Source: a candidate division FCPU426 bacterium
GTDB lineage: Bacteria > Oederibacteriota > JAAXVQ01 > JAUVAV01
Direction of reading: 5' to 3'
Assembly: GCA_030591525.1 (NCBI GenBank)
Contig: JAUVAV010000019.1
Span: 1-54,581 of the forward strand
Length of the DNA: 54,581 nucleotides
The translations under genes were made by a program, and so were the position numbers. Of this stretch, positions 10,159 through 37,149 are shown piece by piece. Under the pieces are notes generated by a model. The model worked only from the letters and a program-made list of their open reading frames with translations, was not told the origin of the DNA and made no database searches. Every line of letters starts with the position of its first letter. The stretch's first letter is position 1.

Positions 10159-10616
10159 GCGATACTGCCGGATCCCACCCGAGGCCTTCCTGGGACAGCT
10201 ATTTCATGGAAATCACCAAGCTGGTGGCTAAACGCTCGACCTGTCTGCGGCGGGCCGTGGGTGCGGTATTAGTTAAAGACAAGCGGGTTATGGCCACGGG
10301 TTACAACGGGGTCCCGCGGGGATTAAAGCACTGCGATGAAACCGGCTGTCTCAGGGCCCGGCTGAATATCCCCTCGGGAGAGCGTCATGAAATCTGCCGC
10401 GGGCTGCACGCTGAGCAGAATGCCATCATCCAGGCCGCGGTTTATGGTGTTTCTATTGAGGGCGCGGTGATTTACTGCACTACCCAGCCTTGTGTGATTT
10501 GCTCAAAGATGCTGATCAACGCCGGGATTAAAACTATCAAGTTCGAGGGAGACTATCCGGATGAGTTGTCAGTTTCCCTGCTGGAAGAAGCCGGCGTTGA
10601 ACTGATAAAGTTCTAG
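10155..10616 (+). CDS. comEB: dCMP deaminase (ComEB-like)
   Basis: Start at ATG 10155, overlapping the glyA stop as ATGA; a longer open frame from 10125 lies inside glyA and is not used. 153 residues of the zinc cytidine/deoxycytidylate deaminase family. The catalytic zinc site is HAE ([10 protein letters not shown]) plus PCVIC ([12 protein letters not shown]); a second metal-binding segment [10 protein letters not shown]...[10 protein letters not shown] is typical of dCMP deaminases. It converts dCMP to dUMP for thymidylate synthesis. Last gene before a 160-base gap carrying a palindromic element, but the co-directional run continues beyond it. Confidence 0.95.
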
Positions 10617-10621
10617 TGGGC

Positions 10622-10766
10622 TTGAGCATTTAGTCGGATTTTTTAATTCCTGAGCAATTGAACAATAGAAAATAGACCGCAATTGAGTTTTTTTATTGCT
10701 CTATTGTTCAATTTTCAATTGCTCTGGAGTTTGAGCAATTAGTCTATGACTAATTGCTCAAACTCC
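10622..10766. repeat. Two-hairpin palindromic element (copy 1)
   Basis: The gap between comEB and wecA is filled by a structured repeat. A small stem pairs gcaattga (10680-10687) with tcaattgc (10715-10722); three bases later comes a perfect 41-base hairpin (10726-10766) with 19-nt arms and a TAT loop. The left boundary ttgagcatttagtc (10622-10635) pairs with gactaattgctcaa (10748-10761) with one mismatch, like terminal inverted repeats. Another copy of the same geometry is at 23240-23342, sharing the core AATAGAAAAT...GACCGCA. Possible roles are a mobile element remnant, an attenuator or a small RNA. Confidence 0.75.
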
Positions 10767-10778
10767 TAGGCCAGGAGT

Positions 10779-19901: not shown

Positions 19902-19929
19902 GTAGGGGCGTTTAATTAAACGCCCCTAC
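19902..19929. repeat. GTAGGGGC-type palindrome, perfect
   Basis: A fully symmetric 28-base palindrome (gtaggggcgtttaa / ttaaacgcccctac). It sits after a gene pair and before endoQ and could act as a terminator. The preceding bases ggcagtt match the flank of the element at 15726. Confidence 0.75.
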
Positions 19930-23098: not shown

Positions 23099-23239
23099 AA
23101 AGAGGACTCCCGTCGAATTTCGACTGCTTAATTATTTTAGTATATCACAGCTGTGAAAGCAAGGGTTGAATTTACTCTGCTTCCCGGTGCCCCATTAGTT
23201 ACGGTACTAAAATCGCATTGTGATAAAGTAAGCGTTGAG

Positions 23240-23342
23240 AATAGAAAATCGAAAATTGACCGCATTTGTATTATTATCTATGTTTAAGGTTCAAATGCTT
23301 TGTAACCTATCAGTCATGTTAGTACCATGACTGATAGGTTAC
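23240..23342. repeat. Two-hairpin palindromic element (copy 2)
   Basis: Shares with the element at 10622-10766 the core aatagaaaat...gaccgca, then a small stem gcatttg (23262-23268) / caaatgc (23292-23298), a three-base gap and a 41-base hairpin (23302-23342) with perfect 17-nt arms and loop ttagtac. Arm sequences differ from copy 1 while sizes and spacing agree. The right arm includes the dinB stop codon (23341-23339), so the hairpin could also end dinB transcription. The rest of 23099-23239 holds nothing recognised. Confidence 0.75.
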
Positions 23343-24502
23343 GCTTCCCGGCGCAGGAGGCTGGCCCACTGGACAACACTGTATCCGTAGCGGGAACGGA
23401 GTTTGTCCGCTGCGGTCAACAGGTTGTCCTGCTGTTCGCGGCCCTGCGTATCAGGCAGAGAGAGCTGCTGCTCATGCTTCACCAAATCCTGAGCTACAAA
23501 TCCCAACAGACGAATGTGTACCCGGCGCACTGCCAGGCGCTCCCAAAGGTCAACGGCGGTCTCGAACAAGCGGCCATCCAGATTAGTTGGCCGGGGCAGG
23601 GATTGGGAACGGGTATGCAGGGAAAAATCCGCATAGCGTACTTTTACGCATAATTTTTGGGCGCGGAGATTATTCCGGCGGAGACGGTAGCCGAGCTCGC
23701 ACACTAAACGATGCAGAGCATGGCGTAAAAATTCGCGATCCGTGGTATCGTGCGCAAAGGTTTCTTCATGGCTCAGGGACTTGGCCGGCTGGCGGCCCTG
23801 TACGGGTGAATGGTCTTCTCCGCGGGCCATGTTTTGCAGGGTACGGCCGGTTTCGCCGAAAACCCTGGCTACCAGGGAACGCGGCAGTTGGGCCAGGCCG
23901 CCGATTGTGTGTATGCCATGGGCGCGGTATTGGGGTTCGCTTTTTGGTCCTATTCCCATCAATTTGCGGATCGGCAGAGGCGCGAGCAATTTTGTTTCAT
24001 AACCGGGCCGGACATATAAAATACCAACGGGTTTGGCCAGGTCCGAGGCGATTTTAGAAACCGCTTTCGAAGTGGAGATGCCGATGCTGAGATCGAGCCC
24101 TAACTCGTTTTTTACTTGTTGCTGGATCAGGCCCGCGGCTGAGAGGGGCGGGCCAAAGAGTTCCCGGCAGTTGGTATAATCAATGTAAGCTTCATCCAGG
24201 GAGGCCGGTTCAATATCCGGTGAAAAAGCCTCCAGAATATGAAAGAAGGCGCAAGAGGCCTTGTGGTAGGCTGGGAAATTACCCGGAAGTACCACGGCCT
24301 GGGGGCAGAGCCGGCGTGCCTGGGAGAACGGCATGGCCGAGTGCACGCCGAACTTGCGCGCTTCGTAGGAAGCAGTGGCTACCACGCTGCGGGCTGTGCC
24401 CGGCGAGACAATCACCGGCTTGCCCTGGAGCGTGGGATCCAGCCGGCGTTCCACGGCCACGAAAAAAGTATCCAGATCGAGATGAAAAATACAGCGGGGC
24501 AT
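23339..24502 (-). CDS. dinB: DNA polymerase IV-type Y-family translesion polymerase
   Basis: 387 residues. Catalytic acidic residues are present in FHLDLDTFFVAVERR and PASLDEAYIDY, so unlike ImuB proteins it should be active. Thumb helix-hairpin-helix segment (LMGIGPKSEPQYRAHGIHTIGGLAQLP) and little-finger domain (RRNNLRAQKLCVKVRYADF) are normal. A clamp-binding motif QLSLP lies at 346-350, followed by a 37-residue tail LLTAADKLRSRYGYSVVQWASLL as in UmuC/YqjW-type relatives. AGGAAGT is eight bases upstream of the ATG. It lies downstream of dnaE2 on the same strand, 109 bases away, suggesting one mutagenesis unit. Confidence 0.93.
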   Translation of the reverse strand: MPRCIFHLDLDTFFVAVERRLDPTLQGKPVIVSPGTARSVVATASYEARKFGVHSAMPFSQARRLCPQAVVLPGNFPAYHKASCAFFHILEAFSPDIEPASLDEAYIDYTNCRELFGPPLSAAGLIQQQVKNELGLDLSIGISTSKAVSKIASDLAKPVGILYVRPGYETKLLAPLPIRKLMGIGPKSEPQYRAHGIHTIGGLAQLPRSLVARVFGETGRTLQNMARGEDHSPVQGRQPAKSLSHEETFAHDTTDREFLRHALHRLVCELGYRLRRNNLRAQKLCVKVRYADFSLHTRSQSLPRPTNLDGRLFETAVDLWERLAVRRVHIRLLGFVAQDLVKHEQQLSLPDTQGREQQDNLLTAADKLRSRYGYSVVQWASLLRREA

Positions 24503-33494: not shown

Positions 33495-33503
33495 TAAGAG
33501 ACT

Positions 33504-33630
33504 GAGCATTTAGTGGATTTTAATATAAATAATTCCTCTCCCTTGAGGGGAGAGGTTAGGTGAGGGTGCAATTTTAAAGATTTTTATCATCCTCCCCTTC
33601 ATCCCCTCCCCTCAAGGGAGGGGAATATCT
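33504..33630. repeat. Repeat-rich segment after the protease gene
   Basis: Starts with tgagcatttagtggatttt, which matches the left end of the two-hairpin element at 10624. Next come tcccttgaggggagaggtta and its inverse cccctcaagggagggga (33606-33622), a large hairpin-forming pair. The opposing ggaggg/ccctcc segments may stop transcription from the protease gene. Confidence 0.55.
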
Positions 33631-33688
33631 ATATAAATTAATTTTTTCACAGCTTTTCAGTAATCAGTTACTCCTATTCCATTTAAAG

Positions 33689-37119: not shown

Positions 37120-37149
37120 GTAGGGGGCGACGCGTGCGTCGCCCCCTAC
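37120..37149. repeat. GTAGGGGC-type palindrome, perfect arms
   Basis: gtagggggcgacgc / gcgtcgccccctac with two central bases. It sits 20 bases after the frameshifted gene and could end its transcript. Confidence 0.7.

Follow-up and report, generated by a model that had tools for sequence, protein, structure and literature searches.

The window analysed here, a stretch of 54,581 nucleotides from a candidate division FCPU426 bacterium, contains two non-autonomous DNA transposons (MITEs) that have unrelated ends and share one foldback core. In our judgement the core is probably a third-party module carried by these MITEs, namely a gene-less miniature of mobile elements that encode a 23S rRNA-intervening sequence protein (IVP), and travels as a passenger of transposons with terminal inverted repeats (TIRs). 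The features of the two elements, and of a third site in the window, are as follows.

10614-10615, no strand: TA target duplication, left copy, type A (empty site AAGTTCTA..CCGGGAG in the same-genus genome G001)
10616-10766, plus strand: type A element (copy 1), consisting of left TIR, T-rich spacer, core, TCT and 41-nt palindromic right end
10616-10635, plus strand: left terminal inverted repeat GTGGGCTTGAGCATTTAGTC, type A (family consensus GGAGYYTGAGCAWTTAGTC)
10652-10676, plus strand: arm a, made of 7-8-nt units (GAGCAATT GAACAATA GAAAATA GA), which the predicted fold pairs with 10700-10724
10675-10722, plus strand: conserved core GACC-GCAATTGA-loop-TCAATTGC, copy 1, with GACC at 10675-10678 (core pattern, 105 genome copies)
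10700-10724, plus strand: arm a' of the predicted fold, inverted 7-8-nt units, overlapping the right half of stem b
10726-10766, plus strand: 41-nt hairpin, type A, equal to the right TIR plus an inverted copy of the right TIR (solo palindrome copies elsewhere, L324-L326)
10767-10768, no strand: TA target duplication, right copy, type A (empty site in G001)
23179-23186, no strand: 8-bp target duplication GCTTCCCG, left copy, type B (other type B copies have their own 8-bp duplications)
23187-23342, plus strand: type B element (copy 2), consisting of left TIR, spacer, core, TTT and 41-nt palindromic right end
23187-23210, plus strand: left TIR GTGCCCCATTAGTTACGGTACTAA, degenerate GTAACCTTTCAGTTATGGTACTAA, type B (from comparison with other type B copies)
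23258-23298, plus strand: conserved core GACC-GCATTTG-loop-CAAATGC, copy 2
23302-23342, plus strand: 41-nt hairpin, type B, equal to the 24-nt right TIR plus an inverted copy of the outer 17 nt of the TIR (covariation)
23343-23350, no strand: 8-bp target duplication GCTTCCCG, right copy, type B
33502-33516, plus strand: left TIR remnant ACTGAGCATTTAGTG of a type A-family element with a different insert, CCTCTCCCTTGAGGGGAGAGG...

The original prediction placed a two-hairpin element at two sites of the window, and both sites indeed hold one, but its true bounds are 10616-10766 for copy 1 and 23187-23342 for copy 2. The left motif joined to GACCGCA that had been described as common to both copies (AATAGAAAATN{0,15}GACCGCA) occurs twice in the window, where 0.00 occurrences are expected, and 49 times in the genome, compared to 0 in the reversed control. 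Stem b has the proposed length of 7-8 bp, with 8 bp in copy 1 (10679-10686 paired with 10715-10722) and 7 bp in copy 2 (23262-23268 paired with 23292-23298), and is followed by the 3-base gap, TCT in copy 1 and TTT in copy 2, an offset that is nearly constant in other cores. The length of exactly 41 nt given for the large hairpin holds for both window copies, which form a perfect 19-bp stem at 10726-10766 and a 17-bp stem at 23302-23342, but not for the core-side hairpins elsewhere, which range from about 18 to 48 nt. Copy 1 additionally has a longer hairpin formed between its two arms (10652-10724), which shares positions with the 8-bp stem b. A pseudoknot with a/a' and b/b' paired simultaneously was rejected, because a' of copy 1 overlaps the right half of b and the two stems are alternatives there.

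Both copies have shared terminal inverted repeats and target duplications. The TIR of type A, GGAGYYTGAGCAWTTAGTC, is present at 254 sites in the genome, compared to 0 in the control, and the TIR of type B (GTAACYTATCAGTCATGGTACTAA ends) at 50 sites. Type A duplicates TA, and the orthologous place in the same-genus genome G001 is an empty site, a comparison that applies to type A only. The 8-bp duplications of type B are GCTTCCCG in the window and ATGGAAAG, CATAGTCT and CGGGTTAC at other copies. In each MITE the hairpin consists of the right end of the element itself, joined to an inverted copy of that end. The 41-bp palindrome of type A also occurs alone, without a core, between CTA and TAG (L324-L326), and type A ends also bracket quite different inserts. 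The site near 33514, which had been taken for a fragment of the core element, contains no piece of the core; it is the left TIR (33502-33516) of a third type A-family member with another insert. At 33502-33640 this TIR is joined to the insert CCTCTCCCTTGAGGGGAGAGG...CCTCAAGGGAGGGG, and the same insert lies between type A ends at four further loci (L328, L329, L333 and L339), so that one TIR family brackets several unrelated palindromic repeats.

Like bacterial MITEs in general, the window elements are short and gene-less, have TIRs and a TA or 8-bp target duplication, and occur in many copies. Unlike in the usual MITEs, one foldback core is here common to several unrelated TIR families, and the element ends in a palindrome on the right. 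The combination of GTAA ends with an 8-bp duplication presumably resembles IS66, and the TA duplication presumably IS630. A derivation from either is not supported, as no transposase of the two families with these TIRs is found in the genome; the searches covered IS630-type DDE_3 (PF13358) and IS66 (PF03050) and gave no match. Viral contigs, phages and plasmids likewise gave no match to the window element. At four loci (L003, L010, L035 and L037) we observed tandem composites, in which two cores of different type stand side by side or are split by a direct TIR copy.

Further copies, on which the original prediction depended, were found by pattern search in large numbers, both in this genome and in other phyla. 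The core pattern GACCGCAWTTGAN{16,45}TCAAWTGC matches 105 times in the 2.7-Mb genome, compared to 0 for the reversed pattern, and a generic core is present 40 times, compared to once for the reversed control, in 774 kb of contigs chosen regardless of the core. Thirteen of 59 relatives have the core. Among the matches listed for the named genomes scanned are Omnitrophota, FCPU426/Goldbacteria, Firestonebacteria, Auribacterota, Elusimicrobia, Planctomycetota and others, and the complete genome of Ca. Velamenicoccus archaeovorus (Omnitrophota) is one of the carriers.

Several of the locus sets were picked by the core pattern itself, which is silent on the hairpin. A hairpin of at least 7 bp is found to the right of 69% of 160 distinct cores, compared to 0.6% for shuffled sequences and 0.6% on the left side, and it starts exactly 3 nt past the core in 84 of 109 cases. 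It had been claimed that the arms differ while the structure stays, and this is what we see: the window hairpins are the right ends of two unrelated elements, and the 160 distinct cores come with 88 distinct arm sequences at a mostly fixed 3-nt offset.

Single-strand folding of the two window copies has z-scores of -9.8 (copy 1) and -5.2 (copy 2), with 0 of 200 shuffles as good, and a third sequence reaches -10.4. Among 13 distinct type B hairpins, four pairs are changed on both sides, a covariation score reached by 0 of 500 shuffles. At the middle variable A/T position of stem b, the two sides pair in 129 cores and fail to pair in one or two, under a search pattern that permitted either. The suggestion of selection for folding is therefore supported in a broader form, as selection or correction. 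The hairpin arms contain 1596 Watson-Crick pairs, 2 G-T pairs and 28 other mismatches, with no enrichment of G-T. Compensatory changes without G-T pairs argue for folding that is kept at the DNA level, or for DNA-templated correction, and count against selection on RNA. Of the roles proposed earlier, a single-strand recombination substrate agrees with a DNA-level foldback or mobile substrate, considering the empty site, the target duplications and the lack of G-T enrichment. A family of folded DNA whose geometry is kept while the letters of the arms change also offers a natural data set for studying the formation and correction of palindromes.

Of the 84 distinct cores from other genomes, 29 have a tRNA or tmRNA gene no more than 60 nt away (22-32 nt in most cases) on the side of the hairpin, compared to one on the opposite side; 25 of these cores face the 3' end of the RNA gene and four the 5' end. 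The space in between is occupied by the hairpin, which directly adjoins the RNA gene and often has the CCA end within its palindrome. In these tRNA-side hairpins, a T-run leads into the loop and an A-run follows it, and the hairpins differ between genomes. The geometry is thus constant and the letters vary with the neighbour, the hairpin being the element's own right end in the MITEs and a tRNA- or tmRNA-abutting palindrome elsewhere. In Ca. Velamenicoccus, five loci (L222, L228, L230, L232 and L237) show a tRNA, a T-run/A-run hairpin and then an inverted tRNA 3' end (CCACCA..hairpin..TGGTGG). This structure sits in a larger conserved repeat and is a second, different tRNA-end element.

Could the hairpin belong to the target, with the core inserting next to hairpins that were already there? 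The solo 41-bp palindromes without a core would fit such a target-site preference, as would the variation of the tRNA-side hairpins between genomes. However, the orthologous tRNA cluster of the same-genus genome G001 has neither hairpin nor core, and in our genome several tRNAs of one cluster carry the core with nearly the same hairpin, as if the hairpin travelled with it. We regard this explanation as a minor possibility that deserves some weight. Snap-back copying of the local flank at tRNAs was also considered, and the single orthologous cluster in G001 does not support it.

The second type of neighbour is a protein-coding gene. For 10 of the 84 cores from other genomes, a gene encoding about 114 amino acids starts roughly 35-45 nt away, on the side opposite the hairpin and at a nearly constant distance. 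Its product belongs to PF05635, the 23S rRNA-intervening sequence protein (E 5.8e-31 and similar), and also matches the four-helix-bundle protein model TIGR02436, with 2gsc as a solved relative. Its likeness to Avd, the accessory protein of DGRs, is limited to a weak model match (E 8.8e-5), well below the Avd cut-off. The sequence GCGGTC lies within 200 nt upstream in 14 of 15 distinct IVP matches, most of these loci having been picked by the core. In 828 kb of this genome, from blocks chosen regardless of IVP, there is one full IVP gene, which lies behind tRNA-Asp and a core; in another genome, 400 kb chosen in the same way contain one 46-aa IVP fragment, which has no core. With IVP genes this rare, chance is very unlikely to place ten of them at one distance from a core, and the core is associated with IVP genes. 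On a Phycisphaerae contig (L136, ~150-670), two same-strand cores surround an IVP gene, suggesting tandem units.

The 23S rRNA intervening sequences (IVS) have been characterised as selfish elements whose origin and mobility are unclear (PMC4990558). The elements described here resemble IVS/S23 elements in the protein family found by the core, in terminal complementary sequences and in a location in or at structured RNA genes. Unlike IVS, the cores lie at tRNA or tmRNA ends, in intergenic regions or between operon genes and not inside 23S rRNA, and most core copies are gene-less. Both window copies are intergenic and gene-less; copy 1 has the inverted arms a/a', and in the window there is neither an IVP gene nor a location in 23S rRNA. 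Because of the missing IVP gene, the window copies are related miniatures at most.

The associations with RNA genes and IVP genes bear directly on a simpler explanation, according to which the elements are ordinary MITEs only; the core would then descend from the interior of a single ancestral MITE that exchanged its ends, and would be unrelated to IVP genes and tRNAs. It is true that the window copies are clean elements with TIRs and target duplications, and that the same TIRs carry other inserts too. This view is nevertheless already strained by cores that lie, without TIRs, beside tRNA, tmRNA and IVP genes in other phyla, and the core is moreover present in several MITE families with unrelated ends. 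We consider it unlikely.

An adjacent Y1/HUH transposase, a possibility raised in the original prediction, was looked for and not found beside the cores: no convincing core lies within ~1.5 kb of 30 Y1 genes from Omnitrophota and an Elusimicrobium, nor within the same distance of the four Y1 genes of this genome. In the family and order of the window, three of 30 Y1 loci have a core within ~300 bp and might count in favour of such a partner; they lie in G004 and G006, and two of the three share a repeat-rich contig that also has a tmRNA. A REP/RAYT-like single-strand DNA element mobilised by Y1 (HUH), with GACC and TCTG as the tetranucleotide tags 5' of the two hairpins, would account for the conserved tetranucleotide ahead of each hairpin, the high copy number and the folding at the DNA level, and Y1 genes do exist in these genomes. 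Apart from the lack of convincing cores near the 30 and the four Y1 genes, it is opposed by the TA and 8-bp duplications of types A and B, which are unlike Y1 transposition, and by a Y1 gene of this genome that has its own GGGGACGG-type flanks; we judge it quite improbable. Like the repeats of REP/RAYT (TnpA-REP) systems, the cores are palindromic, extragenic and present in many copies, bear a short conserved tag and fold at the DNA level, but they have no GTAG or CGTC tag and do not, as a rule, flank Y1 genes. One Y1 gene of this genome (L162, 1350-2475) is flanked by GGGGACGGCTTTCGGTTAA and its complement, a repeat family of its own that is unrelated to the core. The window also contains other perfect palindromes that start with GTAG, namely GTAGAGACGCCC, GTAGGGGCGTTTAA and GTAGGGGGCGACGC at 2837-2897, 19902-19929 and 37120-37149, which resemble GTAG-tagged REP-type repeats.

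A structured RNA, or a terminator or processing signal, for example on tRNA transcripts, is very improbable despite the strong fold and the frequent position of the core just downstream of tRNAs, since the cores stand in both orientations to tRNA and tmRNA genes (25 at 3' ends, four at 5' ends), G-U wobble is not tolerated and an Rfam scan gave 0 matches at gathering scores, which speaks against the small RNA proposed earlier, while the proposed terminator, in the sense of a GC-rich hairpin followed by a T-run, fails because no T-run follows either window hairpin and the tRNA-side hairpins, with the T-run before and the A-run after the loop, have the wrong polarity.

We return to the view that the MITEs carry a third-party foldback module. 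The module would comprise arm a of 7-8-nt units, GACC, stem b, a loop with arm a', TCT and then the palindrome, and would be the gene-less miniature of mobile elements that have an IVP gene (PF05635) and inverted 7-8-nt repeat arms. In this genome, TIR transposons would have carried such miniatures along as passengers and so spread them, with mobilisation in trans by transposases that we did not see in the assembly. IVP, or a partner, might bind the fold in a single-stranded or cruciform DNA form, and snap-back copying might generate or repair the palindromes. To our knowledge, no nuclease or transposase activity has been described for IVP, and among the candidate enzymes tested (Y1, DDE_3 and IS66) none was supported as the mobilising enzyme. 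Against the link to IVP, an IVP neighbour is present at only a minority of the cores. The relatives of the core beside tRNA and IVP genes suggest a widespread, poorly described kind of mobile element.

Plasmids provide a second setting for IVP genes. On cyanobacterial and Gemmatimonadota plasmids, these genes lie between genes of operons or clusters, with flanks such as cas6/cas4, cas10/cmr3 and two ribonucleotide reductase genes. Three of the loci (L457, L461 and L465) are IVP elements within CRISPR-Cas operons (cas6-cas4, cas10-cmr3) of cyanobacterial plasmids. Inverted 7-8-nt repeat arrays bracket 10 of 12 plasmid IVP genes and 0 of 86 control genes, where the inverted-arm score had to exceed the highest of the 86 controls, taken from three of the same plasmids. 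A narrower first window gave 5 of 12, as the right arm overlaps the gene end in three cases and lies further out in others; the wider window was then used for IVP and control genes alike. In Nostoc sp. ATCC 53789, the sister plasmids pNsp_a and pNsp_c both have the gene order X-Y-Z. One of them carries an IVP element in the X-Y gap, and the second carries one in the Y-Z gap. Neither element is present on the respective other plasmid, and their heptamers differ (AGTCAGG/AGTCAGA versus AAAGGGG-like). These are polymorphic IVP insertions with inverted heptamer arms, and inverted heptamer pairs without a gene are present on the same Nostoc plasmid.

The plasmid layout matches that of the core: in both, a short centre is flanked by arms built from 7-8-nt units that run in inverted order. 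It differs in the position of the gene, which in the candidate phyla lies outside both arms, beside the core, and on the plasmids between the arms; a homology of the two layouts therefore follows from architecture rather than from sequence. We infer that the core and the plasmid elements belong to the same class and that IVP contributes to their mobility.

Cyanobacteria are known for short tandemly repeated repetitive (STRR) heptamers, which form intergenic arrays of 7-nt repeats. The TAACTGA heptamers of Beggiatoaceae have been treated as arrays possibly acting in regulation or rearrangement, in a text that mentions neither S23 nor four-helix proteins (PMC4679880). Both kinds of heptamer resemble the plasmid IVP elements in being intergenic 7-nt arrays, and such arrays bracket the plasmid IVP genes. 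In the literature, with few subscription journals covered, we found no prior link of IVP genes to heptamer repeats or to tRNA-side elements. As a tentative proposal, IVP/S23 genes could be the hallmark of a mobile-element class that is very widespread and includes the rRNA IVS as one special case. Such an element would combine the gene with inverted 7-8-nt arrays whose letters vary per insertion, and would leave gene-less foldback miniatures behind; cyanobacterial heptamers and two-hairpin elements would be its ends or remnants, directed to tRNA and tmRNA ends in the candidate phyla. The bracketing of plasmid IVP genes by inverted heptamer arrays connects two open matters, the origin and mobility of IVS together with the function of the abundant S23/four-helix-bundle genes (PMC4990558), and the origin of the cyanobacterial heptamer repeats. 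Since the sister plasmids of a single Nostoc strain that is in culture differ by two IVP insertions, mobility can be tested in the laboratory.
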